From Lucifuga dentata (Eukaryota > Chordata > Actinopteri > Ophidiiformes > Bythitidae): 64,000 nt of DNA. The notes under the pieces are model-generated. The model searched no databases. It worked only from the letters and a program-made list of their open reading frames with translations, and was not told where the DNA came from. The stretch spans positions 1-64,000 of the forward strand of contig VXCM01003404.1 in NCBI GenBank assembly GCA_014773175.1. Reading direction: 5' to 3'. Both the position numbers and the translations under genes were made by a program. Shown here one piece after another: positions 1 through 64,000 of the stretch (position 1 is the stretch's first letter; each line of letters begins with the position of its first letter).

Positions 1-179
1 AACATGGATTTTTAAGGTGGGTGTATCACTTGAATATTTGATTTTGAAAGATTAAGAGATTTTGTATAATGTCAGGAAAATAAATAAAATACAGTTTTAT
101 CCTTTGGGAAATGATTGTCAATAATGAAAATGAAATATATTAGGCTCAAACATACAAAATGGGTGGTAGGGTCCTTTAA
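1..179 (-). mobile_element. TTAA-MITE, subfamily Y, right part
   Basis: Right half of a Y copy cut by the window edge. It ends with the TIR and shares its terminal TTAA (176-179) with the next copy. Confidence 0.85.
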
Positions 180-745
180 AGGGCAATATTGGCAATTTGG
201 TGTGTTTAAGCCCATTAAATAAACCTGTATACATGTTTACATTCCTGACAACTGTTTCCCAAAAACATTACTGGAGCAGTAAATATTAGATTTTTTTTTT
301 TCCCTATCTTTCAGGCTGCCATTGATTGCAGTTCATTCCAGAATGCTTTAAAAATCAACTGTAGAGACTTGAAACATACTTGAGATACATAATGCATCAC
401 AGCGAACACTGTCTCTTACATTTTTTGTTGAAGTAGCTTTATTGAACCGAGCCAACACGGACAATGTATGTCTCCGCCAGGGAATATAGTCCCAAGAGAA
501 AACGGCTTTTACCGAGAAATTAAAAGCGACCGTGCCTTCTACATTTGTTAGCAGGTAAAACACTGAATTTTAAGGTGGATGCATCACCCTGAACATTTGA
601 TTTTAAAAGATTAAAGGACTTGGCAAAAATAACAGGGAAACTACAATACAGTTTTATCTTTTGGAAATTGTCAGTAATGTAATGTGCGTGTGGGTAGTAT
701 TTGTTGGAGCTTAAACATGCAAAATTGCCGGTATGGTCCTTTTAA
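176..745 (-). mobile_element. TTAA-MITE, subfamily O
   Basis: Full-length O copy with diverged TIRs, joined directly to the preceding Y copy. The internal block GGAATATAGTCCCAAGAG is present. Confidence 0.85.
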
Positions 746-806
746 CTTTCATCTGCAACAGTCCATATCACCAGTCTGTCTGCCCTGCCCACACTTTTTG
801 TCACAC

Positions 807-914
807 ACAGCACCCTCCACAAATATTGGCAAAATTGGTAAATAAAAGAAAAATAGGCTGTGAAAATAAATGTCTTTGTTATTCTCTTTCATTCAAAATG
901 TGAACAAAAATATG
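807..914 (+). mobile_element. Tc1-like MITE, 5' fragment
   Basis: Contains CACCCTCCACAAATATTGG and TAAATAAAAG like the longer copy at 50351-50657, but stops after about 100 bp where O-type MITE sequence resumes. Confidence 0.6.
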
Positions 915-1134
915 ACGACTTTTACCGAGAAATTAAAAACGACCGTCCCTTATACATTCTGACATGTATGTGTTAGGAGGCAAAACACTGAATTTTAAGG
1001 TGGGTGTATAACTGAGACATTTGATTTTGAAAGATTAAGGGATTTGGAAAAATAACAGGAAAACATCAGTAACGTAGCATGTATGCAGATGCTATTGGGC
1101 TTAAACATGCAAAATTGCTGGTATGGTCCTTTAA
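915..1134 (-). mobile_element. TTAA-MITE, subfamily O, right part
   Basis: Right 220 bp of an O copy ending GGTATGGTCCTTTAA; the left part is replaced by the Tc1-like fragment. Confidence 0.8.
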
Positions 1135-2120
1135 AGCCAATTTGCGTCTTCCTACCATTTGAGAAACTTTATGGCTGCTAATAAAAATCAATTCACATTC
1201 TCTGATGTGTTCTTTAGCTTAAAATCCTGGAAAAAGATATTTTAGAGTTTCTCTTCTGTGTTTTTAGCCTTATTAGTCCATAAAGTAACTTTTCATTCAA
1301 ATGTTTTGATGTGTTGCACTTTATAAACACATTTTACAATCATTTCAGGATCTGCTGCAGCACAGGAAAGATACCAGATTCTTATTTGTTTTTTATCCTC
1401 GCTGAGACTGAAAGTTGTCAGTATTTGACTGTGACGACTCTCCACGTGGTTTTTCTTTAATGCATTAGAGTTTTGCATCTTCTTTTCTGCTGCATTTGTG
1501 TTGTAAAATGTGTGATTAGGAATTTGGTTGATATAGAATACTTTTTTGTTATTGAGATGAATTGTGAATTTCTAACCTTTGTGGTGCTGACTGCCGTTTC
1601 AACTCACTAGTTTGGACACACTAACATTTGTCTTCTTTGTGCCGTCTGGAATGCTCACTATATTATATACGCAACGCGGTAAAATTACCTTTCAGTATCT
1701 TCAACTAAGCTGGACAACAATTTATAGAAGCAAAAGATTCTATTTTTATATGTGAAAACAAGGCCGATGGCATGTACTGTAACACAAAGGTAAATACTTT
1801 AAGCATTTCTATTGTTGGTTTAGTGATATGAAACAGGAATAAATAGTTGTAACTTCACAGAGTGTAATTGTATTCATGTGTGTATCATTTAAAGCTGCAG
1901 ATATGGATCGCTAATGTCTGAATATGTTTTTTGGCTTGGAGTAAAATGCGACTCCTGGACTTCTTAAACAAGTGAAAATGTCTTATTTCATCTGCATCAG
2001 TTTGTCTTTTGTTTCGCAGAGTTTTTTTTTACAGTTATACCACCCGTAGACTGTGATATTAGTAATCTTATGTCATGAAATTCATTGCATGTCATACTAC
2101 AAGATTTCTACAGTATAATC

Positions 2121-3400: not shown

Positions 3401-4682
3401 AAGAGGAAGAAAGACTAAGTATTTCCTTGTTTATTACTATTCTATGACTCTGGAACTTAATACTTAGAGAGCAAATGTGATGATTTCCAAGGAACTAGAC
3501 ACTGAGCTTTCAGAAGAGCCCAAGCTTATGTTTGCCCACAAAGGGACTGAGGAGATGTAGCCATTTTCATTTGGGTATGTCATTTTCGGTGTTTTCGTTG
3601 AAAATAGAGGGGGATGGAGCAGATTGATTTCCGGGTCATGTCAGGATCAAGGAACGTTCAAGAGCTTCGGAACCCACTGAGGGTGTGTAAAGTGTGCCGC
3701 TGGGCATGGTGACAGGTGAAAATGGCCACACCTTTAAGGGCCACACCCTGCAGCTGATGCTGCGTGTGGACAAAACATTTTCAGATGGGGTTAAGTTCAG
3801 ATCAATGAAAGATATATCAAAAATATCAATCAATAAAAATCAATTTGTCATAATTCCAAACAGGCCGGCTTATGCAGGGAGAACTGAGGTGTTGAAGGTG
3901 TAAAAATAAATACATCTGTGGGGTTGACAGAAGTGCAGCTTTGGGAAACAGGATGTGGGGTTATTTCCGCTGAATCCAATTAGCTTCCTGCTAATACAAC
4001 GTTAAGAGTCTGGAAGCTAATCACAGATTAGCAGCATATGCTACTCAAACAAGATTTCTACCAGATAGCTACTGTAAATGAGATTTTTTGAAACTTTTGC
4101 TGAGTTTTGCATAAGAACAGTGGATCCATGGCAATTCCTAAAGCACGTCCATGTTTTATCCCTCCTTAAGCTGCCCTGAAGAGATCTGTGGTGTGTCACA
4201 AAGGTTTGACTTTTTGAATTGTAAACCAGCCTAAAATGGATTTTATGTGATACAGACTGCATAAAACACAAAACCCTCAAAAATTAAAACATTTCAGAGT
4301 GGGAAACGAGAACTTCAGTCTCCTTAAACGTAAAGAAAAGCAGCATTTAACCGTGAGAAGTTATTATTTCTGTGCCTGAAAATGAATTGTGAACTGTGTT
4401 AAACCATCCAAGGAAATCAACAGAAAACTGAATTAATTCCAAAGCCCGAACTATGATTTGGAAGACAAACTTCTGTTTTAAAATGTCATGATAGATAATG
4501 TCGGCTATCTGCAGTGTATTTTCTGTATTTTATTTATTTTTATTTTTTATTCATCTTTGTTATATACTATGTCCACTGGCAGCAAGAAACACAACTTTTT
4601 ATGTGACATCACAAAAGAATTCTTACTGCAGAGTGTTGACCGTTCACTTAAACTGATTCCAAAGCATTTCTTTGCTTACACC

Positions 4683-4979
4683 TAAAGGACCATATTGGTG
4701 ACTGAGCATGTTTGAGCCCCATAAAAATAACTTGCATATATATATGTATATAAATTTTTTTCAAATCCCCTAATCTTTCATAATCAAATGTTGAGGTGAT
4801 TCACTCGCGTTAAAATTCAGTGTTTCTCCTCTAACACTTATGAATAATTGTAGAAGGCACGGTCGTTTAATTTCTCAATAAAAGCCGACTCCTCCTGGGA
4901 CTATATTTCCTGTTGGAGTAATACATTGTCTTCCATGCAACTCCATGTTGGATCGGTTAAATAACGTTGCTTCGACAAA

Positions 4980-5011
<32 letters not shown>

Positions 5012-5235
5012 CTAACAGACACCATGTTCGCTGTGATGGATTATGCATCTTAAACGTGTTTCAGCTCTACATGTTGATTTTAATAGCATACTGGAATGAA
5101 ATGAAACCAATAGCAATCTGGAAGTTTGGGAAAAAAATTTACCACTAAATTAGTATATTTTGGGAACTTGTTTGTCAGTAACTTGTATGTGGATTGCTGG
5201 GCTCAACATGCATGATTGTCCGTGTGTTCCTTTTA
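4683..5235 (+). mobile_element. TTAA-MITE, subfamily O
   Basis: Diverged full-length O copy with degenerate termini (CCTAAAGGACCATATTGG and GTGTTCCTTTTA). The conserved CTGGGACTATATTTCCTG block is present. Confidence 0.8.
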
Positions 5236-5840: not shown

Positions 5841-6538
5841 GTTCCAAGAAATCCAAGAAATCCCAACGCTTCTCCGTAGGGAAACACCAGTTTAGTTTCT
5901 CAACATGACTATGGTGACTGTCGCTTCCACAAACAAACTGTCTACTTTCACTTTTACAAGGACAACTTCAGCTCGACCTGGATTTCTGATCGGCGATGCC
6001 ATGGCTCTACTAATGGATGAAAAATTGCTGTAGGTGTGAAAAGTCACGTGAAAGTGTTCAGCGGCTTTTCCAGCTATTCTGAGGACTTGCACCAGTACTT
6101 GTAGATACTCTGGTGCGCGAGATTCGACTGATGCAACTTTTACATGCTAATCAAAGAAAACCTGCAATCGTCTATGCTTATTTATTATTCATATTCTTTA
6201 ACCCCTCTGGTCACCTCACCATTCTACTGTGAGTATGACTTGTATGACCAAAACTATCTTCATGACGTTGTGTTTCAGAGTTGTAGGGATTTGTAAACTC
6301 TATGGCAACCTGAGAAGATTAATGCATCAATGAAGAAGGGTTGGCAGCAAGTGCGATGATCTCGTTTATCCCCCGTGAACTCGGCTGGCCTCTGTGCCTT
6401 GGAAAAGCGACAGAGAGGAAAAAGAATCAAAATCGAGAACCTTGCAGGATTCAGCCGTAGGATGAGGCACCGTGTTTGCATTGCGGACGGCCAGTGGACA
6501 TAAACTCTGGGTCCTCCTGGTGTTTGGTATGAGATTAA

Positions 6539-7012
6539 ATGGTGTTGATGACAGAGGAATCAGGCGAAGGATTAAAGGTTCGAGAGAATGGAGTGGCTGG
6601 AGGGATGGGTTTGGGCGAGAGCGAGATTAGGACGGAGAAAATGGCTCTGGACACACCCATCTTTTCCATCAGTCAGGACCAAGAGGACGAGGACGAAGAC
6701 AAGAACCAGATTGAAGTTGATTACATGCACAACTATTGGGAGGACGACGATGATGTCTACCAGGAGTTTGAGGAGTTGGACTTCGAGGCCCTCCCAGATC
6801 GCTTTGACACGAGGAGCGTGGCCTCGGACGATTCCTTCTATCCGCCAGATAACTCAGTTGCGTCCACTGTATGTCGTCCACCAAGCCCTGTGAGCCCAGA
6901 GCCCATCTCCTTCTTCAAGGCCTGCTGCAACAACAACCCCATCATCGTCAAGGTCATGATCAGACAAGGAGTGACAAAAGAGGAAGTGACGGAGACAGAC
7001 AGGAACGGACGA
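6539..7012 (+). CDS. ankrd33b: ankrd33b exon 1 (start codon to first ankyrin repeat)
   Basis: There are 158 codons, opening [11 protein letters not shown]; human ANKRD33B also opens MVL, as I recall, which supports this ATG. An acidic, Ser-rich leader precedes a PPSPVSPEP linker and the first ankyrin helix pair. The exon ends in TDRNGR at the donor CGA|GTGGGT, phase 0. Translation past 7012 ([12 protein letters not shown]) is intron read-through. Position -3 of the ATG is T and +4 is G, a middling Kozak context. No promoter motif is convincing upstream. A Y transposon starts 52 bp after the donor. Confidence 0.85.
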
Positions 7013-10000
7013 GTGGGTGTCTATAGATCCTATATTGTTCTGAATTATTAGTTATATGTCAACATTAAAGGGCCATACTGGCCATTTTGCATGTTTGAGC
7101 CTAATATATTCAATTTTCATAATGTTACATTACTGACAATCATTTCCCAAAGCATACTACTGGAACGATGAATTAAAAATGTTTTTCCTACCTTCCAGAC
7201 CTCCATTGGTTTCAGTTCATTCTGCTATTAAAATCAACTTGTTGATACTTGAAACGTTCTTGGGATAGGTAATCCATCATCACCAACAAGATGTGTATTC
7301 ACGTTTTTTTTTAGAAGTTACATAATTTTTTAGTGTTTAAGCTCAATAAAAACTGCAGAGTGAATGTATGTCTCCACTGGGGAATATAGTCCCAAAAGAA
7401 GACCTGAGTTTATTGAGAAATTTAAAGGACTGACTTCATAAGGCTGTGTAACTATTAGCAGGTAAAACACTGATTTTTAAGGTGGGTGTATTGCTTGAAT
7501 ATTTGATTTTGAAAGATTAAGAGATTTTGTAAAATATCAGCAAAGCTGAAATATGGTTTTATCCTTTGGGAAATGATTGTCAGTAATGTTACGTGTATGA
7601 AAATTGAATATATTAGGCTCAAACATGCACAATCGCCGGTATGGTCCTTTAAGCATGTTTAGGTTTATTTTCTCTGATATCTTGAAACCAGTAAAGTCCA
7701 CAAGAGAGTAAAAATCTCAAAACATTTCCCAAACAGGCCAACAGCAGGATTTATTTCTTCAAGGTCCTCCTCTCAACTCAATCAGGTCAATTAGCATTAA
7801 CATTGTGAAGTTAGAACACAGAAGCCCCTGGCACATAATTCTATAGATACATTAGCATCATGTATGAGGGAGGGTGTTTGGAAAAATGCTCCACAATCAT
7901 CATATTTCAAATTTTGCTTATATATTTCAATGTTAGCATAAAGTCATGCTATTGTACATCTATTCCTGATGCACAGCTGCAGCTATGTGACGACACTCTG
8001 CAGATCAGATCAGGTAAAGTGCAGATGCATGTTTAGAATTTCTAAAAGCTTCTATTTAAACCTGCAATGTCCAAAATTTTTGACATTAACACTGAATTGT
8101 TTCATGAAACCACAGAAAATAGCAACAAACTCTGCAGCTCTGTTCAGCTTTTATCCTCTTTTAGCTCTTTGTTCTGGCTTTATAAATATACACAAAAAAT
8201 GGCTGAAAGACAAAGGAAAGTAGTTACTGGTGAAGAAAGTCAAACACACAGCAAGATAAAGACTCAGATATGTTTGTCTGGAGTTGGTGGAGACAAAAAC
8301 AAATCAAAACTAAACTAAAATTAGAGGAAATACTGGACTTGTATTCAAATGGTTAGGTTAGGTTAGGTTAGGTTAGGTTAGGTTAGGTTAGGTTAGGTTA
8401 GGGTTCTCTTGAATGTATAAGTAGGAAAATGTTTGCTAACTTGTCAACCACATTAGCCTATAATACATCAGGGCTATGTGACATTCCATTTTCAAGGACC
8501 ATACCAGTGATTTTGGATGTTTGAACCCATTAAATACTACACACATGCACAGGTGTCACGAGGGGAATGCGGGGGGTGTGGACCACACTGGGTGACACCA
8601 TCAGAGGGTGTCACACCAAAATGACTATCTATAAAATTTTTGTGCAGTGTTTCAGCAGAAATGTTTTATTATTTTAAAAAAAAATTCCCGGTAGTTAGTT
8701 ATAACAAGAAAAACATATTTCGTAACTCCAGTGTACATACTGTCATGTACTGCCCCCTCCCCTCCCCTCCCCTCCATCGGCAACTTGAATAGTTAGTACC
8801 ATCCATTATTGCTGAACCCACCTGTCACCGAGATACCGCACCAGGTGACACCAACCCTAGTGACGTCACTACGCATATGTTACATTACTGACAAATAGGG
8901 ATGAGCTGAGTACTTGGATGAAATGAGTATCCAATACAGATAATGCACTTTTTACGAGCATGAGTACCATCCGAGGAAAAAGTGTCGATATCTGTACTCA
9001 TTAAATACTTAGTTACTAGTACTCGTTACTAGCGCTGTGCCCACATGGTTGTGTGATCGTACAGGCAGCCAATCACAGAGCTCCTCTCTACACAGAGCTG
9101 CTGCTGCTGCTCCACACCACTCACAGCCACTGTGTCCACACTAGCATAGTAGCATCTATTAGCTATAGTTTAGCATAGTAGCATCTATTAGCTATAGTTT
9201 GTTATTCTCAGATTCAGCTCAACATTATTCTCAGTCCACAGCTAAACACACATTCATTTACTGTGGACATTCACACGTAAGATACTGATACTAACATACA
9301 TTTCTACTAGCTACTACTAGCTTCTTGTAGCTTCTAGCCTCTAGGAGGCTAACTAGCCAGTTAGTTCGCAATTTGTAACTTTCTGTTAAACCCCGCCCAC
9401 TTCCACATTAAACCCCACCCATCCGAATATGGATAATTTAGTTGATTGATAACAATGTACTCGCTCATCTCTTCTTACAACCAATTTCCAAAACGAAAAA
9501 CCATATTTCAGTTTTCCTGTTATTTTGCCAAATCCCCTTATCTTTCAAAATCAAATGTTCAGGTGATACACTCACCTTAAAATTCAATGTTTCGCCTGCA
9601 GACACTTATGCACGATTGCAGAAAGTATGCTAGTCTTAATTTCTTCATAAAAGCCGTATTCTGCTGGGACTATATTCCCAGGCAGAGACTTCTGTGGAGT
9701 TCCATGTTGGATCTGTTAAATTAAGTTACTTCAACAAAAAATTTAGTAGACGTGGTGTTTGCTGTGATGAATTATGTATGTCATGCATGTTTGAAGTCTC
9801 AACAAATTGATTTTAATAGCTTACTGGAATAAACAGAAACCATTAACAATCTGGAAGGTAGGAAAAAAAATTCTAAAATTTACTGCTACTGTAATATATT
9901 TTGGGAAATGATTGTCAGTATAACGTGTATGCAGGTTGTATATATTGGTCTCAAACATGCAAAATCAGCTGTATTGTCCTTTACAGTGTTAGAACACCTT

Positions 10001-12338
10001 TACATATAAACTGTACTTGTAGTAAGGGATCCATATTTGTGAGGAAGATAGATTTCAAGGAAAAATCAATCTTGAATTCTCAACAAACAGGCATTTCCTG
10101 TATGATAGACATGAAATCTAATACTTAACGGATTTGAGGAAACGATCCGGTGTTCAGCTCTAAAGGCACTTTGACGGCACTTTGTAACTCTGATATTTTC
10201 TCAGTGATCTTGTGGTTTTTGCGGTCAGACCGGCTGAGTCTGATGCAGCAGCGAGACAAATCCTGGAGGAGTTTTTAGAGCCGTAGGTTAAGCTGCTGGT
10301 GACAGATGGAGAGCGTAACCTAAACCTGCATGATGACAATGTCAAGAAGCAGCTTGCTATCATGGCTCAGTGTTTAAAGGACCATACCACCATTTTGCAT
10401 GTTTGAACCTAATATAGTCAATTTTCATACACATAATGTTATAGACAATCATTTTCCAAAGCATACTACTGGAACGGTGAATTACAAATGTTTTTCCTAC
10501 CTTCCAGACCNTTTTTTTTTTTTTTTTTTTTTTTAGAAGTTATGTAATTTTAACGTTTAACCACAATAAAAAACGTGGAGTGAATGTATGTCTCCACCGG
10601 GGAATACAGTCCCAAAAAAAAGACCTGTGTTTATGGAAAAATTTAAAGGACTGTGACTTCATAAGGCTGTGTAACTATTAGCAGGAGAAACATGGATTTT
10701 TAAGGTGGGTGTATCACTTGAATATTTGCTTTTGAAAGATTAAGAGATTTTGCAAAAATATCAGGAAAGTTGAAATACGGTTTTATCCTTTGGAAAATGG
10801 TTATCAGTAACCTTACATGTATAAAATCCTCAAAATTTGGACTCCAGACCAAAACACAACTTTCTCTGGACTCTGAGCAAATTCTACTTTTCATATGTAT
10901 TTTTTGTATTATCTGCGGGACATTGCTGTGACGCAACAAGTCAAAATTCTCAGCTTTCTACGCTGCGAAGTGAAAGCGAATGTCCGCCTAAAAGTTGACA
11001 GCACAGCTAGATCCTTCCCCCCCCACCCCAAACAAAAAACAAACAGACCTTTGTGATATTGAAAATTTTCTTTGTGGACTTTTAAGATTTGTATTTGAGT
11101 ACTCCTCAAACATGCAATATAGGTGGTATGGTCCTTTAAAGACTTGCTAAGACACTGACCTCATGTTGAAGAAAGCGAGGAAACAAGCATATTTATGTGT
11201 CTTTTTTTTTTTTTTTNTTTTTTTTTTTTTTTAATAAGTTATATTTGCTGACACTCGTATTTCTCAGCCTGAAGACAAAGTTCAGGGATTACTGCTCTGA
11301 ATGTAAATGTGCAGCATGACGTCATGCTTTCCTCTGTCTGTGCCATTCTCACGATTCATGTTATTGTAGCTAAAAGGAGCAAACCGGTGGTTTTTACATG
11401 TTTGAGCCCAATATACACAACCCACATTCATGTTACGTTACTGATAACCATTTTACAAAACATACTACTGGAGCGGTACATTTTAGAATTGTTTTTCCTA
11501 CCTTCCAGACTGCCACTGGTTTCAGTTCATTCATGTAGGCTATTAAAATCAACTTGTAGAGACTTAAAAAGCGCTTGAGATAAAATTCATCACAGCAAAA
11601 ATGACATCTATTACATTTTTGTTTTGTGTCCAAATGACTTTATTTATCCGATCAAACACAGAGCTCCTTGGAAGAAATGTATGTTTCCAGCAGGGAATAT
11701 AGTCCCAGAAAAAGACAGTTTCTACAAAGAAATAAAAACAATAAAATCCCGTTTACATTTGGATGTACATATTAGCAAATGAAACATTAATTTTTTAAGG
11801 TGGGTGTATCACCTGAACATTTGAATTTGAAGAATTAATAACAGGAAAACTAAAATCCATCTTTATGCTTTTGAAAATGGCTGCTAGAGTTAAGTGTATG
11901 CAAGTAGCATTTATTAGGCTTGCAAAATCACCGGTATGGTCCTTTATGAGCTAAAACCGAATGAAAGATGAAGAAACTCCTCTGTGTGTGTTTCAGTCTG
12001 GCCTGATCGTGGCGTGCTACAAAGGCTACATGGATGTGGTCATCGCTCTCTCTCAGTGCCCGTATGTTGATGTAAACTGGCAGGACAACGAAGGCAACAC
12101 AGCTCTCATGACCGCGGCACAAGCAGGTAAACACATGCTGGTCCATCCATCCATCCATCNGGCAACACAGCTCTCATGACCGCGGCACAAGCAGGTAAAC
12201 ACATGCTGGTCCATCCATCCATCCATCCATCCATCCATTCTCTATACCTGTTTATCTTGTTCAGGGTCATGGGGGGCTGGAGCCTATCCCAGCAGTCATT
12301 GGGCGAGCGGACAGATCGCCAGTCTGTCATAGGATTAA

Positions 12339-12379
<41 letters not shown>

Positions 12380-13559
12380 AAACTCATTCACACCTACGGC
12401 CAATTTAAAGTTTCCACTTCACCAAACCTGCAAATCATCATGCTGCCCAATTTTGCAATTTTACTTTTCATTGAATTTGGATTGTTTTTTTTTTTGTTTG
12501 TNAAAAAAAAAAAAAAAAAAAAAAAAAAATTACTAGACAGCGGAATTATCTTGACATTTCTACCAAGCCTGTCAATTTTTAGCATTCATATGCATGTTCA
12601 TTGAAATATTTTGGACAGTTTGGACATTTATGCCTAATGAGGAGTTTAATTAGCGCTGATCCAGAGAGAAAAGCCTCATCTGGAGTTACATGATACAGAG
12701 ATCTCCACATCTTTGAGCTTTGGCTAGAGGTGATATGTGTGGTGTTTTCTAACAAATTGAATTTGGAGGATGAAAGCAGAGCGCAAAGTGAAGATAAAGA
12801 AATCTGTCAATGTCCTGTTTAAATTTAGAAACAGTAGACATAAAAATTGTCAAAAATTGTTGCAACCATTTCATCTATGTTTCTCTTCCCACTTCCGATG
12901 CGTAATTTACAGTGGATGGAAATTTATTGTATTGAATTGATGGAGACCTCTGAGACTGACCCAAATTAAAGCACAAAGTATTAATAGCATTAAATCTGCT
13001 GCTAGAATTGAGCTGCAATCGCTTTAATTTTCTGACGTTAGAAATTGGCGTCACAACTAATTTCATAGTTATGCAGCCATGTGTGTCAGACGTAACGCCC
13101 TGCTCTCTCATCTCCTGATGATGATGAATGGCCGCTGAGGCTGTGATGAATAGCTGCAGACTGCTCTTCATTTTATGCCTCATTAAAAGAACTATTGATC
13201 CCCTTTAGGTGACAAAGTCCTCTGTGAAACCTCAGGAGAGGAGAGGTAAAAAAGACTGAGTCAACGCAGCAGAGGGAGTTTTCAGTCAGAATGCAGAAGG
13301 AACCAAAAGCTCCGTTTCTGATTTTTCACAGTATATCTTCTTATATCTTTTTTTAAGTGGCCCATAGCTGGTTTACACCTAAATGAGCAAACATGGGTTT
13401 TTATTCCTGAGATGGAGGCAAACAAAAAGCTGGAATGAACACAAATGACACATAGAAAACATGACAAGCTTTTGCTTTGTGAAGCATCTTTAAAGGTCCA
13501 GAATGACTTCATTGTATTTTAAAGCAGAGAAGAAGGATTAGGGCCTGTATAGCATTGAC

Positions 13560-13594
<35 letters not shown>

Positions 13595-14995
13595 CATTTT
13601 ATTCTGTTCCTGTTTGCTGTTTTATATTCTTTACTGTTTCATTGGTTTTATGTCTTTGTAATTTGTCTGCTTTCTCGCCCAGCCATTTGAGGAGAGGGAA
13701 TCTCTCTTTGAATTGCCTTTCCTGCAGTTTCTATCATTTTTTTCCTCATATGAGGAGGTTTTTTAGGGAGTTTTTTGTCTTGATATTGGGCTAAACTTGA
13801 CTTGACTTATTTCAGTTCACAGGACTGATTTGTATGGACACAGAAGAAGAGAGTTGCGTTTTATGGGATGCAGTTCAGAGGGAAATTTAAATTTGCATGT
13901 ATTTGCAGATGTCCAGAATGTAATTGATTTATTTCCACATATAAATGTGGCTCAGAAGAAGTTAGTTTCAATGTGTTGTTTTTTTTTTTTTTTTNTTTTT
14001 TTTTTTTTTTTTTACTGTTTACATGTTCAAACTTGGAATGAGTAACTTGTACCTCACTGTATGAATGAGTGAATGTAGAACTTTTTTGAATTGTTTTTTG
14101 AATTGTCGTCGAATTGTTTATGACATTAAATGACCATACCATCCATTTTGCATGTTTGAGCCTAATATATTCAATTTTCATACATGTAATGTTACTGACA
14201 ATCATTTCCCAAATACTACTGGAACGGTGAATCAAAAATGTTTTTCCTACCTTCCAGACCTCCATTGGTTTCAGTTCATATTAAAATCAACTTGTTGATA
14301 CTTGAAACGTTCTTGGGATAGGTCACGAACATCATCGTGAACAACACGTATATTCAGGTTCTTTTTTAGAAATTTTGTAATTTTAGCATTTAAGCACAAT
14401 AAAAAGCGTGGAGTAAATGTATGTCTCCACTGGGGAATACAGTCCCAAAAGAAGACTTGTGTTTATTGAAAAATTTAAAGGACCATGACTTCATAAGGCT
14501 GCATAACTATTAGCAGGAGAAACATGGATTTTTAAGGTGGATGTATCACTTGAATATTTGATTTTGATCATACACATAACATGTATGAAAATTGAATATA
14601 TTAGGCTCAAACGTGCAAAATGGATGGTATGGTCCTTTAAAANTAACATGTATGAAAATTGAATATATTAGGCTCAAACGTGCAAAATGGATGGTATGGT
14701 CCTTTAAAAATGAGTTATATTTTCACTGTCCTCTGAACGGTTTGGTACTTTAACTGTTCAATGCTAAATTATGATTGATTCGATCTTTAATGCGTGACAG
14801 CGGTTGTAGCCATGTCCTGCCTGATGCTGATTGGTGTTTTCCTTTGGCCTGCAGGTCATCTTATGATCTCTAACTACCTGCTGAACTACTTCCCCCGGCT
14901 GGACATCGAGAGGAGGAACTGCCACGGTTTCACGGCTCTGATGAAGGCCGCCATGCAGGGCCGAGCCGAGTGTGTCAGGGCTCTCATGTTGGCAG
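6539..14995 (+). CDS. ankrd33b: ANKRD33B-like ankyrin-repeat protein, gene span (3 exons seen, 3' end missing)
   Basis: Three exons (6539-7012, 11997-12126, 14855-14995) join in frame, phases 0 then 1, with GT donors and AG acceptors, giving about 248 residues. The first part is acidic ([19 protein letters not shown]) and contains [13 protein letters not shown], which I recall as a hallmark of ANKRD33B. Ankyrin repeats begin near residue 127 ([20 protein letters not shown]) and continue through [18 protein letters not shown] and [12 protein letters not shown]. The family includes ANKRD33 (PANKY), a photoreceptor protein reported to bind the transcription factor CRX. The function of ANKRD33B is poorly known and I assign none. 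Human ANKRD33B is about 490 residues, so roughly the C-terminal half is absent here. The last exon was sought between 14996 and 24572 and not found; a 228-base gap begins at 15919. An ANKRD33 paralogue is less likely, because the CTNND2 neighbour fits ANKRD33B. Confidence 0.85.
7065..7652 (-). mobile_element. TTAA-MITE, subfamily Y, complete
   Basis: 588 bp between TTAA motifs, with TIRs of about 85 bp. It lies in ankrd33b intron 1, 52 bp after exon 1. Confidence 0.9.
8351..8403 (+). repeat. (TTAGG)n pentanucleotide array
   Basis: About ten perfect GGTTA units. TTAGG is the insect telomere motif; vertebrate telomeres are TTAGGG, so this is read as an ordinary microsatellite. Confidence 0.95.
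8550..8870. mobile_element. Unidentified insertion with GTCACKAGGG inverted ends
   Basis: The left end contains GGTGTCACGAGGGG; the right end, inverted, reads GACGTCACTAGGGTTGG. It interrupts the O MITE. No clear target duplication. Confidence 0.5.
8896..9473. mobile_element. hAT-like non-autonomous element
   Basis: The ends TAGGGATGAGC and GCTCATCTCTT are imperfect inverted repeats. Flanks CTGACAAA and CTTACAAC fit an 8-bp duplication of CTGACAAC, the sequence expected in the uninterrupted MITE TIR. No transposase frame. Confidence 0.65.
10374..11139 (-). mobile_element. TTAA-MITE, subfamily Y, with nested insertion
   Basis: Complete Y copy whose right TIR is split by the element at 10829-11106. 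An N (10511) followed by poly-T marks a joint inside it. Confidence 0.85.
10829..11106 (+). mobile_element. Unrecognised small element, partner at 35766-36137
   Basis: Starts ATCCTCAAAATTTGGACTCC and ends ATTTGAGTACTCCT. A related sequence lies inverted at 35766-36137. The ends are weakly inverted (ATCCTCAAAAT versus AGTACTCAAAT). It splits the MITE TIR cleanly, so it is a discrete mobile unit. Confidence 0.55.
11370..11946 (-). mobile_element. TTAA-MITE, subfamily O
   Basis: Full-length O copy ending ACCGGTATGGTCCTTTA, 50 bp before ankrd33b exon 2. Confidence 0.85.
11997..12126 (+). CDS. ankrd33b: ankrd33b exon 2 (ankyrin repeat)
   Basis: Acceptor TTTCAG|TCTGGC at 11996/11997 and donor GCAG|GTAAAC at 12126/12127. 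It encodes [18 protein letters not shown], then a cysteine-proline turn and [20 protein letters not shown] plus one base of a Gly codon. The NTALMTAA motif is a canonical ankyrin TALxxAA signature. The last 34 bases of the exon are repeated after an N at 12160 (see 12161-12227), which I read as an assembly overlap. An O transposon ends 50 bp before the acceptor. Confidence 0.88.
12161..12227 (+). other. Duplicate of ankrd33b exon 2 tail, probable assembly artefact
   Basis: Positions 12161-12227 repeat 12093-12159 base for base across a single N at 12160: the last 34 coding bases, the donor GTAAAC and the start of a (CCAT)n run. The 67-bp unit resembles other single-N joints in the window, so I read it as an unmerged contig overlap and not an exon duplication. 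Confidence 0.85.
12338..12379 (+). repeat. (CA)n microsatellite
   Basis: Nearly pure CA dinucleotide run in ankrd33b intron 2. Confidence 0.9.
13560..13812 (+). mobile_element. LINE/SINE-like 3' tail, partner at 51430-51675
   Basis: After a (CT)n run it carries GGGAATCTCTCTTTG, GAGGTTTTTTAGGGAGTTTT and ATTGGGCTAAACTTGACTTG. The same order recurs at 51430-51675. This resembles a common fish retroelement tail, from memory. Confidence 0.5.
14126..14708 (-). mobile_element. TTAA-MITE, subfamily Y, with internal deletion and assembly repeat
   Basis: A Y copy lacking the segment between the TGATTTTGA block and the right TIR. Its last 66 bp (14577-14642) are repeated at 14644-14709 across N 14643. 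Confidence 0.85.
14855..14995 (+). CDS. ankrd33b: ankrd33b exon 3 (ankyrin repeats)
   Basis: Acceptor CCTGCAG|GTCATC at 14854/14855 and donor GCAG|GTAAAG at 14995/14996. The split Gly codon completes in frame with exon 2. It encodes [20 protein letters not shown], then [16 protein letters not shown] and [11 protein letters not shown], ending one base into the next Gly codon. The NYLLNYFP and [13 protein letters not shown] blocks agree with my recall of human ANKRD33B. An exon starting with the rest of that Gly codon should follow but was not seen. Confidence 0.88.
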
Positions 14996-24572: not shown

Positions 24573-51050
<26,478 letters not shown>

Positions 51051-51728: not shown

Positions 51729-51995
51729 GATGAAGACGGCTTTTACCAAGATGTTTAAAACAACTGACTCTTTTACATTTGGACACACGTGTAAGAAGGC
51801 GAATCATTGAATTTTAAGGTGTATGTATCATCTGGACATTTGATTTTGAAAGATTAGGGGATTTGAAAAAAATAACAGGAAAACTAAAATACAGTATTCT
51901 GTTTTGGAAGTTGGTTGTCACAGTAACATAATGTGTATGCATGTAGTATTTGTTGGGATTAAACATGCAAAAAATCAACGGTCTGGTCCTTTAAC
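51729..51995 (-). mobile_element. TTAA-MITE, subfamily O, right part
   Basis: Right 267 bp of an O copy ending GGTCTGGTCCTTTAA. Confidence 0.8.
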
Positions 51996-52078: not shown

Positions 52079-53214
52079 TTAAAGGACCATACCGCTGACC
52101 ATGCATGTTTGAGCCCAATATACACAATCTACATACATGTTACTGACAACTGTTTCCAAAACTATACACTACATTAGTGGTGAATTTTAGATTGTTTTTC
52201 CTACTTTCTAGACTGCCATTGGCTTTATTCATTCTAGCACACTATTAAAATCAGCTTGGAGAGACTTGAAACATGTGTAATCCATCACAGCAAACAACAC
52301 ATCTATTAGGGTTTTTTGTTGAAGTAACGTTATTTAACAGAGGTGCATGGAAGACAATGTATTTCTCCGCCAGGAAATATAGTTCCAAGAGAAGACAGCT
52401 TTTACGGAGCAATTAAAATGACTGTGCCTTCTACAATCGTTCCAAAGTGTTAGAAGGCAAAAAACTAAATTTTAAAGGACCATACCACCCATTTTGTACG
52501 TTTGAGCCTAATATATTCAATTTCCATATATGTTACGTTACTGACAATCATTTCCCAAAGGATAAAACTGTATTTCAGCTTTCCTGATATTTTGCAAATC
52601 TCTTTCAAAATCTTAAAATTAAAATGATACACCCACCTTAAAAGTCAATGTTTCTCCTGCTAATAGTTATGCAGCCTTATGAAGTCACGGTCCTTTAAAG
52701 TTTTCATTAAACGCAGGTCTTCTTTTTGGACTATATTCCCCGATGGAGACTTACATTACCTCCACACTTTTTATTGTGCTTAAATGTTAAAATTACAAAA
52801 TTTCTAAAAAAAAAAACAAAAACAAAAACTGAATACACGTCTTGTTGGTGATAATGGATTATCTATCCCAAGAATGTTTCAAGTATCAACAAGTTGATTT
52901 TAATAGCAGAATGAACTGAAACCAATGGAGGTCTGGAAGGTAGGAAAACATTTTTAATTCACCTTACATGGATGAAAATTGAATGTATTACACATGCATA
53001 ATAGAATGTATTAAACATGCAAAATGGTGGTATGGTCCTTTAAGGTGGGTGTATCACCTGAACTTTTGATTTTGAACGATTGGCAGATTTGGAAAAATAA
53101 CAAAAATGTTTTGGAAACTGGCTGTCAGTAACATAACATGTATGTGGATATATATATATACACACACACATATAGTGGGCTTAAATAGGCAAATTCGCTG
53201 GTATGGTCCTTTAA
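52079..53214 (-). mobile_element. TTAA-MITE, subfamily O, host of a nested Y copy
   Basis: O halves 52079-52475 and 53040-53214 join at AAATTTTAAGGTGGGTG, the normal family sequence. Confidence 0.9.
52472..53043 (+). mobile_element. TTAA-MITE, subfamily Y, nested at TTAA
   Basis: Flanks AAATTTTAA and TTAAGGTGGGTG each keep TTAA where the host has it once. Confidence 0.92.
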
Positions 53215-54503: not shown

Positions 54504-54508
<5 letters not shown>

Positions 54509-54648: not shown

Positions 54649-55015
54649 TTAAAGGACCATACCATCCATTTTGCATGTTTGAGCCTAATATATTCAATTT
54701 TCATACATGTCNAGGATTAAAGGACCATACCATCCATTTTGCATGTTTGAGCCTAATATATTCAATTTTCATACATGTCAACATTACTGACAATCATTTC
54801 CCAAAGGATAAAACTATATTTCAGCTTTCCTGATATTTTGCAAAGTCTCTTATTCTTTCAAAATCAAATATTTAAGTGGTCTGGAAGGTAGGAAAAACAT
54901 TTTTAATTCACTGTTCCAGTAGTATGCTTTGGGAAATGATTGTCAGTAAAGTTACGTGTATGAAAACTGAATATATTAGGGTGAAACATGCAAAATAGTC
55001 GGAATGTTCCTTTAA
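54649..55015 (+). mobile_element. TTAA-MITE, subfamily Y, internally deleted, with assembly repeat
   Basis: Left TIR and short body join directly to GTCTGGAAGGTAGG and the right TIR; most of the interior is missing. 54645-54711 is repeated at 54713-54779 across N 54712. Confidence 0.85.
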
Positions 55016-55750: not shown

Positions 55751-56340
55751 TTAAAGGACCATACCATCCATTTTGCATGTTTGAGCCTAATATATTCAAT
55801 TTTCATACATGTTATGTTACTGACAATCATTTCCCAAAGCATACTACTGGAACAGTGAATTAAAAATGTTTTTCCTACCTTCCAGGCCACCATTGGTTTC
55901 AGTTCATTTATACGCTATTAAAATCAACTTGTTTATACTTGAAACATTCATGGGATACGTAATCCATCATCACCAACAAGACATGTATTCAGGGTTTTTT
56001 CAAAGTTATGTAATTTTAGTGTTTAAGCGCAATAAAAAGCACAGAGTGAATGTATGCCTCCACCAGGGAATATAGTCCCAAAAGAAGACCTGTGTTTATG
56101 GAAAAATTTAAAGGACCCTGACTTCATAAGGCTGTGTAACTTTTAGCAGGAGAAACATGGATTTTTAAGGTGGGTGCATCCTTTGAATATTTGTGTCTGA
56201 AAGATTAAGAGATTTTGCAAAATATCAGGAAAGCTGAAATATGGTTTTATCCTTTGGGAAATGATTGTCAGTAATGTAACATGTATGAAAATTGAATACA
56301 TTAGGCTCAACCATGCAAAATGGATGGTATGGTCCTTTAA
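55751..56340 (-). mobile_element. TTAA-MITE, subfamily Y, complete
   Basis: 590 bp between TTAA motifs. Confidence 0.9.
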
Positions 56341-57321: not shown

Positions 57322-57618
57322 AATCTCACTTTTTACTTGGACAGCTTCATCTGTATTTTGCCACAACCCCAGGAGATGCTATTCAGAAATGTCAAGTGTT
57401 GTTCTTTTGTCAGATGTCAAAAAAAAAAAAAAAAAAAAAANACACATGAATTTATTCATTTTTAAGAGTTTTTTTTTTTCTTTTTCACCTGTCTGTATAT
57501 ATAGTTCTAGTGTGCGCAATTCTGGCACACACCATTGAGAATATACACAGTTTAATCTTGCAGACAGATCACATGCTTGAGTCAAATAAAGCCAAAATTT
57601 GTCCCTTTGTGCACTTTG

Positions 57619-58160
57619 TACACGTAATGTTAATGACAATCATTTCCCAAAGCATACTAATGGAATGGTGAATTAAAAATGTTTTTCCTACCTTCCAGAC
57701 CTCCATTGGTTTCAGTTCATTCTGGTACACTATTAAAATCAATTTGTTGATACTTGAAACGTTCTTAAGATAGGTAATCCATCATCACCAACAAGATGTG
57801 TATTCATGTTTTTGTTTTTTTTTAGAAGTTTCATAATTTTAGCGTTTAATCGCAATAAAAAGCGCATAGTGAATGTATGTCTCCACTGAGGAATATAGTC
57901 CCAAAAGAAGACCTGTGTTTATGGAAAAATGTAACGGACCGTGACTTCATAAGGCTGTGTAACTATTAGCAGGAGAAACATGTATTTTTAAGGTGGGTGT
58001 ATCACTTGAATATTTGATTTTGAAAGATTAAGAGATTTTGCAAAATATCAGGAAAGCTGAAATACGGTTTTATCCTTTGGGAAATGATTGTCAGTAACAG
58101 AACATGTATGAAAATTGATATTAGGCTCAAACATGCAAAATGGCCGGTATGGTCCTTTAA
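57619..58160 (-). mobile_element. TTAA-MITE, subfamily Y, left TIR eroded
   Basis: Starts within the left TIR at CACGTAATGTTAATGACAA; the right end is intact. Confidence 0.85.
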
Positions 58161-58847: not shown

Positions 58848-58849
<2 letters not shown>

Positions 58850-59747: not shown

Positions 59748-60342
59748 TTAAAGGACCTTCCCCCCATTTTGTTTGATTTTGAAAGATTTCACTTTGCTAG
59801 TATATTCAATTTTCATACACGCAATGTTACTGACAATCATTTCCCAAAGTATACACGGTGAATTAAAAATGTTTTTCCTACCTTCCAGACTGCCATTGGT
59901 TTCAGTTCATTCTGGTACACTATTAAAATCAACTTGTTGATACTTGAAGAGTTCTTGGGATAGGTAATCCATCATCACCAACAAGACGTGTATTCAGGTT
60001 ATTTTTAGAAGTTATGTAATTTTAGCATTTAAGCACAATAAAAAGCGTGGAGTGAATGTATGCCTCCACCAGGGAATATAGTCCCAAAAGAAGACCTCAG
60101 TTTATCAAAAAATTTAAACGACCATGACTTCATAAGTCTGCGTAACTATTAGAAGGAGAAACATGGATTTTTAAGGTGGATGTATCACTTGAATATTTGA
60201 TTTTGAAAGATTAAGAGATTTTGCAAAATATCAAGAAAGCTGAAATACAGCTTTATCCTTTGGGAAATGATTGTGAGTAACGTAACATGTATGAAAATTG
60301 ATATTAGGCTCGAACATGTAAAACAATGGTATGGTCCTTTAA
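59748..60342 (-). mobile_element. TTAA-MITE, subfamily Y
   Basis: Full copy; the left TIR carries a scrambled segment (GATTTTGAAAGATTTCAC) copied from the element interior. Confidence 0.85.
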
Positions 60343-60376
60343 GGGTTTAGCTTGAGATAATGACTATGATTTAGCT

Positions 60377-60551
60377 TTAAAGCACCATATCGGCAGTTTT
60401 GCATGTTTAAGCTCAATAAATACTATAAGCATAGACATTATGGATAATTTACTGCTCCAGTGATATATTAGGCAAATGTCAATAATGTAACATGCATATG
60501 GATTGTATATGTTGGGCTTAAACATGCAAATTTGATGGTATGGTCCTTTAA
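60377..60551. mobile_element. TTAA-MITE, subfamily O, minimal 175-bp form
   Basis: Little more than the two TIRs joined, 35 bp after the preceding Y copy. Confidence 0.8.
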
Positions 60552-60615
60552 CATCAGTATTAGTGTTAAATTTTGGTGTGGAACACTTATAGTCAATGTC
60601 ATCACTAGAGGGCCA

Positions 60616-60616
60616 G

Positions 60617-60671
<55 letters not shown>
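60616..60671 (+). repeat. (GA)n microsatellite
   Basis: Pure GA run. Confidence 0.9.
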
Positions 60672-60674
<3 letters not shown>

Positions 60675-61036
60675 TGAAACAGTCTTGCAGGTTGCTCTGG
60701 TGACAGAAACAACAATAAACAGTTTGGCAAAGTTTGATGTGAATTATGGGCACAGATGGCATTTATCTTTTATTAATTACACTTCTTGGCTTGAAGTGAC
60801 TGTAGCAGAAACCACTTTAGAAACAAACAAAGGAAAAGGAAAACAGAAAGTTGCATGAATTAGTAAAACTGTTGAAATGAGAAAACGACGACAGTCAGAA
60901 CCATTTGTAAATGCAACTGAAACTGGAACGAATCAAAAGCCAAAACTGGGCTAAGATCGACTGCAGACCCTCAGGGACGTGAGAAGTTTTGAAGGAATCA
61001 GAATCTAATTGTGCTCACATGAGCACAGTAATGCCT

Positions 61037-61582
61037 TTAAAGGACCATACCAGTGATTTTGCATATTCAAGCCCAATAAATGCACATTACATTATTGACA
61101 GACAACTTTCAAAACACAATTTTAGCTTTTCTGTTATCCTGCAAATCCCCTAATCTTTCAAAATCATACACTTACCTTAAACTTCAATGTTTCACCTGCT
61201 TACATGTTCATCCGAATGTAAAACCCGTCGTCTCCTGGGACTATATTCCCTGGCGGAGACATACATTGTCTTCCATGCAGCTCCATGTTGGATTCTTAAA
61301 TTAAGTTACTTTAACAAAAAAAAAAAAAAAAAAAAAANAAAAAAAAAAAAAAAAAACTTAAGTGTTTGCTATGATGGATCACGTATCTCAAGTGCGTTTA
61401 AGTCTCTACAAGCTGATTTTTAATTGCATAATGGCAGTCTGGAAGGTAGGAAAAACAATTCTAATATTTACCACTCCAGTAGTATATTTTGGGAAATGAT
61501 TGTCATTAACGTAATGTTATGTGGGTTATATATATACAGTATATTCAGCTCAACTTGCAATGTCGCCGTTATTGTCCTTTAA
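61037..61582 (+). mobile_element. TTAA-MITE, subfamily O
   Basis: Complete O copy with N (61338) inside poly-A. Confidence 0.87.
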
Positions 61583-61607
61583 CATGTCCATGTTGAAGGC
61601 AAGAACT

Positions 61608-62194
61608 TTAAAGGACCATACCGGCCATTTTGCATATTGGAGTCTAACATATTCAATTTTCATACATGTTATGTTACTGACAATCATTTCCCAAAGGATA
61701 AAACCATATTTCAGCTTTCCTGATATTTTGCAAAATCTCTTAATCTTTCAAAATCAAATATTCAAGTGATACACCCACCTTAAAAATCCATGTTTCTCCT
61801 GCTAATAGTTACACAGCCTTATGAAGTCACGGTCCTTTAAATTTTTCCATAAACGCAGGTCTTCTTTTGGGACTATATTCCCCGGTGGAGGCATACATTC
61901 ACTCCACGCTTTTTATTGAGCTTAAACACTAAAATTACATAACTTCTAAAAAAACCTGAATACACGTCTTGTTGGTGATGATGGATTACCTATCCCAAGA
62001 ACGTTTACAGTATCAACAAGTTGATTTTAATAGCAGAATGAACTGAAACCAATGGAGGTCTGGAAGGTAGGAAAAACATTTTTAATTCACCGTTCCAGTA
62101 GTATGCTTTGGGAAATGATTGTCAGTAACATTATGTGTATAAAAATTAAATATAGTAGGCTCAAACATGCACGATCACCGGTATGGTCCTTTAA
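61608..62194 (+). mobile_element. TTAA-MITE, subfamily Y, complete
   Basis: 587 bp between TTAA motifs, 25 bp after the preceding O copy. Confidence 0.92.
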
Positions 62195-63053
62195 GACAGC
62201 GTAGCGCTAAAAATCAGCCCATATCTGGAAGATTCTTGTGAGGGCAGAGTCACATTTAAATTCATGACATTGAAATTTCACACCGATTTCATCCCATTTC
62301 AGTGGAACCATCACGATCAGATCCATTTCAGGATATTTGCGTGAATCATGTGTCAAATTCACATTGTCACAGAAAGCACACCGTCGTAGAGAACTCGCCT
62401 CTTCTGCAAAACACTCCTCCACAATTCCCATCCTTTCTTTCACATCTGTTAAAGTTGAAATCCATTTCTCAGAGGACTTGCTGTTAAAATTGGTGAAACC
62501 TTCGCAAATCTGCTTTTAGCATCTGTGTTGTATATACCTGCAACAACTTCTGTATGTGCTAACACGCTAAACGGTGCCATTTACCCACTTTAATGCCACA
62601 ATTTCCACAGGTTTTTGTATTTAAAAAAAAAATCTACTTCACTTCCACCTTTAAATCAATGTACGCTCCTCTCTTCAGTGCTGTCATTCTCCATCTGTTT
62701 TCTTTGCTGGAAGAGCGCTGTGACTGGATGTCATCTCCACAGTTCCCATCGCAGTGTGAACTGACAAATTCCATATCTGCTTTTGAAGTTTTGATACCAA
62801 AGTGAGTGATCCTGTCCTGTCACCCACAATGATGCGTCCTGGTGTGACTGGATGAAAAATGTCGCACAGACAGCTTGTGGATTTTATGAAGCGTCAAAGG
62901 CAGTGCGGCGCTCTGTGAACCAGATAATATGCAGGAGCCCAGCAAAGACTTCAACCTGAGCTCACCAAAACCAAACCTGACAAGCCCAGCCTCACATCTG
63001 AGGGTTTTTTTTTTTTTTTTTTTTTTTTTTTGTACATTGTAGTGTAAATTAGC

Positions 63054-63693
63054 TTAAAGGACCATACCAATCAGCTATTTCTTCAGTTCTTTAGCAAATG
63101 AATTAAAAGACTAACCAACCATGTTGTATGTTTGAGCCTAATATATTCAATTTTCATATACGTAAGATTACTGACAATCATTTCCCAAACCATACTACTG
63201 GAACAATAAATTAAAAAAATGTTCCTACCTTCCAGACCTCCATTGGTTTCAGTTCATTCTGGTACGCTATTAAAATCAACCTGTTGATGCTCGAAACATT
63301 CTTGGGATAGGTAATCCATCATTGCCAAAAAGAACTTTATTCAGATTTTTTTGAGAAGTTTTGTAATTTTAGCATTTAATCACAATGAAAAGTGCAGAGT
63401 GAATGTATGTCTCCACTATGGAATATAGTCCCAAAAGAAGACCTGTGTTTATGGAAAAATTTAAATGACTGTGACTTCATAAAGCTGCCAAACTATTAGC
63501 AGGAGAAACATTGATTTTTAAGGTGGGTGTATCACTTGAATATTTGATTTTGAAAGATTAAGAGGTTTTGCAAAATATCAGGAAAGCTGAAATACGGTTT
63601 TATCCTTTGGGAAATGATTGTCAGTAACCTTACATATATGAAAACTGAATATATTAGGCTCAAACATGCAAAACGGCCAGTATGGTCCTTTAA
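63054..63693 (-). mobile_element. TTAA-MITE, subfamily Y
   Basis: Complete copy with about 38 bp of extra sequence in the left TIR (63067-63104). Shares its right TTAA with the next copy. Confidence 0.87.
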
Positions 63694-64000
63694 AGCACCA
63701 TACCGGTGATCACGTCAGTAACGCATATATGTTAAGTTACTAACAATGTTATTATTTGTCATTGAAGTTACCTAATTTAACTCATCCACAGAAGAAAATA
63801 CCTGTGAAAATACCTGGTGTAACTGGTCCAACATAGAGCTGCACTGAAGACAATGTATGTCTCCGCCAGGAAATATAGTCCCAAGAGAAGACAGCTATAA
63901 CTGAGAAATTACAAAGACTGTGCCTTCTACAATGTGCTGAAGTGTTAGCAGGTGAAACATTAAATTTGAAGGTGGGTGCATCACCAGAACTTTTGATTTT
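63690..64000 (-). mobile_element. TTAA-MITE, subfamily O, cut by window end
   Basis: Begins TTAAAGCACCATACCGGTGA directly after the previous copy and keeps the GGAAATATAGTCCCAAGAG block. Confidence 0.8.

Follow-up and report, generated by a model that had tools for sequence, protein, structure and literature searches.

TTAA is the insertion target of several described groups of elements. Among them are the T2-MITEs of Xenopus, which belong to the Kolobok superfamily, have termini starting with AGG and fall into many subfamilies (PMC6004289, in the portion available). They are presumed to be moved by THAP-bearing Kolobok transposases, and THAP-coding sequence is described there as typical of such transposases (PMC6004289). 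Kolobok transposons, KolobokP included, duplicate TTAA and end in 5'-RR...YY-3', in contrast to piggyBac, according to the accessible sections of PMC9587614. Nested and adjacent insertions at TTAA occur in piggyBac/TTAA MITEs, for example the coral CMITEs (PMC2872659, as far as available). Pack-type non-autonomous elements, which carry gene fragments, have part of a gene between their TIRs. The target, the termini, the nested and adjacent insertions and a gene fragment between the TIRs (in longer copies) recur in the family described here, which we call Y/O after its two subfamilies and which we studied in a stretch of 64,000 bases (the window), likely from a fish. We consider it quite probable that its approximately 35 copies in the window form one TTAA-inserting MITE family, which a Kolobok-type transposase likely mobilizes in trans and which probably derives by internal deletion from a longer element that encoded THAP and bore the same TIRs.

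The Y/O family in the window

The end sequence TTAAAGGACCATACC has 72 matches in the window with at most three mismatches, against 1.8 expected from shuffles (largest shuffle, 5). Profiles of Y (592 bp) and O (593 bp) detected 51 segments with nhmmer, amounting to 16,754 of 64,000 bases or 26.2% of the window, which agrees with the claim of an earlier note on this DNA that one TTAA-targeting MITE family makes up about a quarter of it. Chained by hand, these segments give about 35 copies; the note, whose observation is confirmed, had counted about 31. Its TIRs are real as well, although slightly longer than the 85 bp it proposed: 93 bp with 90 matches in Y and about 97 bp in O. The two subfamilies are distinct over their whole length, as had been suggested, with a consensus identity of 82% and differences spread along the entire element; all 10 O copies tested form a single clade in the tree (support 1.000). 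AG opens 43 of the 46 inner termini of the 23 two-ended copies, and the elements read 5'-AG...CT-3' with the consensus start AGGACC, which confirms that a CCC start is missing. Being short, TIR-bounded, without transposase and present in numerous similar copies, Y and O are MITEs. No coding domain was detected in the window copies, and the frames of 153 and 132 codons that overlap copies at 48260-48721 and 60364-60762, respectively, have no Pfam match; the earlier statement that the interior lacks a coding frame is correct for these copies and incorrect for the family's longer form, which has one. A TIR-like site inside Y (about 219-233) is conserved. It was rejected as a third terminus, since by eye the similarity ends after about 15 bp and the site varies among copies.

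Alignment and profile together delimit Y copies on the minus strand at 7065-7652, 26999-27589, 55751-56340 and 59748-60342, a full-length O copy at 176-744 (minus), and further O copies at 4682-5235 and 61037-61582 (plus) and at 11371-11947, 19909-20473 and 33384-33887 (minus). With a terminus check in addition, TTAA and TIRs proved intact in the Y copies at 24884-25468 and 61608-62194 (both plus). Profile matches define Y copies at 10374-11139 (minus, interrupted by about 257 bp at 10847-11103), 18469-19020 (plus, without right end), 57558-58160 (minus) and 63105-63693 (minus). The last shares TTAA 63690-63693 with an O copy that runs into the window edge (63690-64000, minus, profile). O partial copies were likewise found by profile at 912-1134, 17575-17858 and 51732-51994 (minus) and at 16991-17340 (plus), together with an O copy without left end at 9465-9984 (plus); profile and terminus check identified a short O deletion copy of 175 bp at 60377-60551 (plus). 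End matches and profile support a Y copy cut at the other window edge (1-179, minus), whose TTAA at 176-179 is common to the next copy, an O fragment at 8491-8551 (plus) and an O variant that contains about 400 bp of extra sequence at 36188-36965 (plus). The remaining copies are nested or lie at assembly gaps and are given below.

Target site, relative age and abundance

Two O copies, at 47657-48747 and 52079-53214 (both minus; profile and empty-site check), are targets of nested Y copies, at 47814-48372 and 52472-53043 (both plus; empty-site check), in line with the nested copies mentioned in the earlier note. When the flanks of the nested Y are rejoined, each rebuilt O carries a single TTAA, as does the O consensus at that point (O positions 420 and 171, respectively). 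TTAA is therefore the target of Y/O insertion, as previously claimed, and it is kept at both ends in 16 of the 23 two-ended copies; the left TTAA of the Y at 47814-48372 is now TTGA. A further nest of Y in O lies outside the window (locus L044). This nesting, and a mean K2P distance to the own consensus of 0.071 in Y (n=13) versus 0.168 in O (n=7), suggest that O spread earlier than Y.

Exact matches to the 15-base end number 41,575 in the 598-Mb genome, against 2 for the control, a copy number that fits a mobile family and so passes the test that the earlier note had set for itself. Y/O coverage is 5.1% across 20 ten-kb genome samples; at 26.2%, the window is therefore about five times richer, in keeping with the very high density proposed for this locus. 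Thus, a single family occupies about 5% of sampled sequence in what is probably a vertebrate genome, and its roughly fivefold excess in this gene region offers a testable case of uneven MITE density. The TIR pattern was not found in a scan of IMG/VR, and one Y copy compared with phages gave no match.

Longer copies with part of a THAP domain

Pfam THAP matches number 77 in the genome. Six loci in which the match ends at about model position 61 were fetched, and five of them belong to the Y/O family: L050 (819-1688) reads TIR-THAP-TIR within 870 bp, L045, L046 and L049 have the left TIR together with the right arm up to the end of the fetched sequence, and L047 has the right TIR only. Three other loci (L038, L039, L048) were rejected as members, as they look like other, probably host, THAP genes. 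The THAP fragment comprises 66 codons, about 59 of the 87 Pfam model positions, and scores 47.7 bits in L045 and 41.1 bits in L050 (cut-off 23.9). Read by eye, its consensus retains the C2CH and P/W/F positions described in the available part of PMC6004289. The THAP peptide has at least 149 match pieces (150 of 196 candidates scored), some loci being in several pieces and at least two separate THAP genes (C2324 and C1656) being included; at least 40 loci, counting the query's own, show 84-100% identity at the DNA level (40 of 143 candidates scored). Five loci (L040-L044) picked as possible longer elements because two TIRs lie 1-3 kb from each other turned out to be pairs, nests or interrupted copies with no transposase-like frame. 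No transposase gene with Y/O TIRs was found in the genome loci searched, nor any element that joins these TIRs to a DDE catalytic domain and an H2CH motif.

Since these same-ended longer copies carry a partial THAP domain, the family likely represents stripped-down relatives of Kolobok and not of piggyBac. Y/O show the 4-bp TTAA target duplication and the 5'-RR...YY-3' termini of Kolobok, and the combination of target, termini and THAP points to this assignment. A Kolobok transposase would bind the Y/O TIRs, cut at TTAA and reinsert the elements at TTAA. PF20700, used as a Kolobok model, is uninformative, with no match in the genome, nor in the controls. PF20478, which we take to be the KolX domain (P2X7 C-terminal type; Kol0-lineage Kolobok), has two matches on a single contig; they lie within 1.5 kb of each other, and we interpret them as exons of one P2X7-like host gene.

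Origin of the MITEs

Y can be viewed as the THAP form minus one segment, presumably removed by a single deletion: the segment is absent from each of the 17 Y copies compared, always between the same two breakpoints, and 4 THAP copies have an additional 284-423 bp there. O probably lost the THAP segment by an independent deletion. The left edge of this segment is resembled by 7 of 10 O copies (shuffle p <=0.03 with at least one of two queries) and by 0 of 17 Y copies, a test that was repeated with 2,000 shuffles; at p <=0.015, 5 of 10 O copies remain. The similarity in O is short, each copy was tested twice, and 3 of the 10 copies are without it.

Because no transposase with Y/O TIRs was found, and because the full THAP gene closest to the fragment (on contig C2324; 57% identity) looks single-copy and has no TIR in the 600 bp fetched upstream, THAP could instead be a captured host exon. 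An O-like Kolobok MITE would then have captured the first, promoter-proximal exon from a THAP gene of the host and so produced the THAP form, and Y would have deleted the exon and spread widely as a Pack-MITE. O is without THAP, while the 4 THAP copies are not a separate clade and fall inside Y (tree with weak supports), as such a history would have it; Y also retains about 25 bp present in the THAP form and absent from O (alignments read by eye). The apparent single-copy state of C2324, whose following exon is matched in full by itself alone and otherwise by a single relative at 36%, and a very old O-like copy without THAP in a presumed intron of the same gene point the same way. Searching proteins with the THAP exon of C2324 gave no match. 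However, the edge of the THAP-flanking segment kept by 7 of 10 O copies fits deletion as well, and identity falls to 57-66% in some THAP match pieces, for example on contigs C636, C708 and C49, as expected of old copies. We therefore regard exon capture as possible but doubtful. If it were true, an exon-ejecting descendant with a scar of about 25 bp, Y, would have come to rank among the most abundant repeats in this genome. In the preferred origin by internal deletion, a THAP-carrying element seems to have shrunk step by step to a MITE, and the intermediate form persists in many copies. Whether the MITE arose by deletion of a transposon or by loss of a captured exon is decidable here from one full-length relative.

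Mobilization by a piggyBac-type transposase, which the earlier note had suggested, would make Y/O piggyBac MITEs, cut and reinserted at TTAA by that enzyme. The target fits, and piggyBac transposases are present in the genome, with 67 matches to PF13843 and stop-free frames of 496-675 codons in five of them. However, the Y/O termini (AG...CT, consensus AGGACC) differ from the CC[C/T] of piggyBac, and THAP sequence lies inside the same TIRs. Of the 67 matches, 15 loci were fetched and examined up to 1.5 kb to either side, and not one of these lies between a pair of Y/O TIRs. This suggestion is consequently disfavoured as improbable, and the reflex that equates TTAA with piggyBac is corrected here, with two clean empty sites supplied. 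Single TIR-like matches occur beside 3 of the 15 loci: two belong to ordinary copies of Y or O, and the other (L031, 3 mismatches) lies outside all profile matches. At locus L022 one side starts with TTAACCC.

It is still less probable, indeed very unlikely, that the THAP peptide of the longer copies is a repressor or titrating factor kept by selection. A pooled pN/pS of 0.45 in five Pfam-picked copies spoke for it, but those copies were chosen for their THAP resemblance. In a set of 25 copies (20 added by DNA search), only 7 are open without indel, and divergence from the consensus is 0.085, 0.054 and 0.067 at codon positions 1, 2 and 3, versus a non-coding value of 0.063. The THAP copies decay neutrally, and the reading of 0.45 as constraint is withdrawn, as the 25 copies show none.

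Finally, several copies delimited by profile and gap reading meet the assembly's single-N gaps. Y copies are affected at 2121-2642 (strand unassigned; rearranged, ending at the gap at 2643), at 14126-14640 (minus, with internal deletion), at 29988-30694 (plus, with a 114-bp duplicate around the gap at 30386) and at 54649-55015 (plus, a deletion copy, gap at 54712). In the O copy at 40168-40825 (minus), which a gap breaks at 40389, the TIR apparently holds a nested Y copy (40389-40789). Three apparent duplications, at 14643-14707, inside 29988-30694 and at 54649-54711, and the Y/O mosaic at 40168-40789 are located at such gaps, which direct repeats of 63-114 bp flank, and are likely artefacts; the mosaic, considered as a recombination product, is better read as a gap plus a nested Y. 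There is hardly any chance that the high density of the window is itself an assembly artefact, for although parts of several copies are duplicated at such gaps, only about four copies are touched, and the copies have different flanks and are 4-18% off the consensus.

Comparison with known elements

No paper on the Y/O family or on THAP-carrying TTAA MITEs was found among those listed in our literature search, and a text search with two strings from the end sequence listed matches whose titles and abstract openings are unrelated to transposons. Piggybac-related coral CMITEs differ from Y/O (AGGACC) in having CC[C/T]T termini, going by the part of PMC2872659 at hand. Pack-type elements are set apart in that THAP is also an expected domain of the Y/O mover itself. 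Compared with Kolobok transposons as presented in the accessible sections of PMC9587614, no DDE transposase was seen in the Y/O family; with respect to KolobokP, the Y/O alignments show no long terminal direct repeats with TIRs of their own, the ends being inverted repeats of about 93-97 bp, and no internal endonuclease-bearing region was seen (PMC9587614). From the T2-MITEs, to the extent that the available text of PMC6004289 defines them by motif and description, Y/O are distinguished by the start AGGAC, whose fifth base C lies outside the T2 motif AGGRR, and by the THAP fragment of their longer members. The Y/O family is thus likely a very abundant addition to a known kind of element, the Kolobok-like TTAA MITEs.

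Copies and subfamilies of the MITE family

Self-comparison of the window revealed a single dominant repeat of about 590 bp. Its terminal 15-mer, TTAAAGGACCATACC, occurs 72 times with up to three mismatches, against 1.8 expected, and 27 of these matches are exact. Alignment of 22 near-complete copies resolved two subfamilies, Y and O, which are distinct along their whole length, although the assignment of copies was made by eye. All 10 tested O copies form one clade with a support of 1.000. Profiles were built from 13 Y and seven O copies, the rearranged copy at 2121 and the gap-broken copy at 40168 being excluded; they match 51 segments, or 26.2% of the window, which hand-chaining reduces to about 35 copies. 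The two consensuses are 82% identical, and the terminal inverted repeats (TIRs) of Y measure 93 bp with three mismatches. The MITE observation of the earlier note is sound.

At about positions 219-233 (e.g. window 25102-25116), the Y consensus also contains a reverse-oriented 15-mer resembling the TIR, TTAAAGGACCGTGAC, and a weaker one lies within O; these are possibly relic termini. Elsewhere in the genome, a 45-bp element (L003:6314-6358) consists almost entirely of two TIR tips, both of which end in TTAA.

Target site and relative age

The O copies at 52079-53214 and 47657-48747 are split by Y copies at 52472-53043 and 47814-48372, respectively. Removal of Y together with one TTAA renders both O copies continuous, with a single TTAA as in the O consensus (positions 171 and 420). 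For 23 copies with both ends present, the six bases flanking either end show no duplication longer than TTAA, and two pairs of adjacent copies have one TTAA in common (176-179 and 63690-63693). Together, these observations show that TTAA is the insertion target of the family, bearing out what had been proposed from the sequence alone. Since Y sits inside O, Y is the younger in both nested cases; it is also the less diverged subfamily (0.071 versus 0.168).

Genomic setting of the window

Matches to catenin delta-1 and armadillo repeats come from minus-strand frames at 31.6-35.3 kb. Other exon-like frames are spread over about 24.5-51 kb, and we take them all to be exons of a delta-catenin gene (24400-51200, minus strand), presumably ctnnd2 of a teleost host. 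On the plus strand, a frame at 14.8 kb has a match to ankyrin repeats and belongs to a gene with exon-like frames at 6500-15200 (plus strand), presumably ankrd33-like.

Ten of the 37 N runs in the window are single Ns between direct repeats of 56-114 bp (positions 5784, 12160, 14643, 25618, 30386, 36477, 37029, 39224, 40389 and 54712). They are likely to be contig overlaps that the assembly left unmerged and that mimic short duplications. Between 37300 and 42300, long tracts are rich first in pyrimidines (GC skew -0.51) and next in purines (+0.41); they represent two large, adjoining arrays of simple repeats whose strand polarity is opposite. An inverted repeat pair at 42562-42853 and 43255-43543, whose arms measure about 290 bp, share 93% identity and lie about 400 bp apart, is unrelated to the MITE and is possibly another long-TIR or foldback element.

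Abundance in the genome

The assembly (597.9 Mb, 8,189 contigs) contains 20,814 + 20,761 exact copies of the 15-base end, whereas the reversed end used as a control occurs 1 + 1 times. We sampled 20 ten-kilobase stretches picked by contig number, of which eight, on contigs 1-8, were picked after the end-sequence hit list for them was known. The Y and O profiles cover 10,181 of 199,678 sampled bases (5.1%). If this sample is fair, the family would total about 30 Mb and number roughly 50,000 copies. With thresholds kept equal, mean coverage is 23.9% in six window tiles and 5.1% in the sample (rank test, p 0.0003), and the window holds 27 exact ends against 12 in the richest 64 kb of the first seven contigs. 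A Poisson test of end density in the window was set aside because density varies greatly from contig to contig.

Longer members carrying a THAP segment

A THAP search of the genome gave 77 matches. Among the eight loci fetched first were six chosen because the match stopped near model position 61, and five of these are family members (L045, L046, L047, L049 and L050); L048 is not. The remaining two, L038 and L039, appear to be host THAP genes. The whole form is seen in L050, where 870 bp comprise a TIR, the left portion of Y, a 5' leader, 66 THAP codons, the right portion of Y and a TIR. In L045, L046 and L049 the left TIR is present, as is the right arm up to the edge of the fetched stretch; L047 has the right TIR alone. 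The peptide scores 47.7 bits (L045) and 41.1 bits (L050) against the Pfam THAP model, and its nearest solved structure is THAP11 (2lau; E 2.9e-6).

All 40 loci scored in a DNA search with the segment, from 143 candidates in all, match it. A protein search, in which 150 of 196 candidates were scored, gave 149 match pieces, some loci being split into several and at least two deriving from other THAP genes. None of the window copies carries the segment. Among 25 copies (20 from the DNA search and five from the Pfam search), seven are open without indel; for the 25, divergence from the consensus at the first, second and third codon positions is 0.085, 0.054 and 0.067, against 0.063 in the leader. 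A pooled pN/pS of 0.45 was rejected as a sign of constraint, the copies having been pre-selected for THAP resemblance. We see no sign that the THAP piece is functional.

Relationship of Y, O and the THAP form

Seventeen Y copies (13 from the window and four from the sample) were aligned alongside four THAP copies. All 17 read GGAGACATACAT joined directly to TCACTCC, or a near variant, without the THAP segment, and the four THAP copies have 284-423 bp extra between those same flanks. Y thus looks like the THAP form minus one deletion. A stretch resembling the segment's left edge (shuffle p no higher than 0.03 for one or both of two queries) was detected in seven of 10 O copies and in none of the 17 Y copies; 2,000 shuffles gave identical counts, with five of the 10 O copies at p 0.015. 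The straightforward reading of these alignments is that O lost THAP through a separate, smaller deletion. Edge similarity is missing from three O copies, one of which lacks the region altogether. Alternatively, an O-like MITE may have taken up a THAP exon.

The nearest complete THAP gene, on contig C2324, shares 57% identity with the fragment. An apparent splice donor lies 3' of its THAP exon, and its second exon contains paired cysteines; the presumed first intron, between these exons, holds a very old O-like copy that lacks THAP. The gene, read in part, looks like a host gene. Apart from itself, its second exon has one relative, with 36% identity, on contig C311, which also has a THAP match; no others were found for the cysteine-pair exon of these two THAP genes (L071 and L072).

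Superfamily assignment and known relatives

A TTAA target is common to piggyBac and Kolobok. Family copies start with AG at 43 of 46 ends, and Kolobok termini are described as RR...YY, unlike those of piggyBac (PMC9587614). The genome has 67 piggyBac transposase matches, and no pair of family TIRs bounds any of the 15 fetched loci, read 1.5 kb on each side. Single TIR-like matches adjoin three of them: those beside L028 and L035 fall within Y/O copies, and the one beside L031, with three mismatches, lies outside any profile match. At one piggyBac locus, L022, a TTAACCC start is present on one side. The piggyBac-type mobilisation suggested in the earlier note is consequently not supported, given the AG termini and the fetched loci. 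Five piggyBac loci (L021-L025) have stop-free frames of 496-675 codons, so piggyBac may have been active lately in this genome or domesticated.

Kolobok is the best filing for the family; a THAP domain is described as usual in Kolobok transposases (PMC6004289). A Kolobok transposase supplied in trans would recognise the long TIRs, excise the element at TTAA and allow its reinsertion at another TTAA. No gene for this mover came to light in the loci read. The family itself was recognised in none of the hits listed by paper searches, which do not extend to Dfam or Repbase. For zebrafish, PMC4746887 puts Kolobok elements altogether at 2.41% of the genome. The kind of MITE is already known, the T2-MITEs of Xenopus being of a kind comparable to the family described here.
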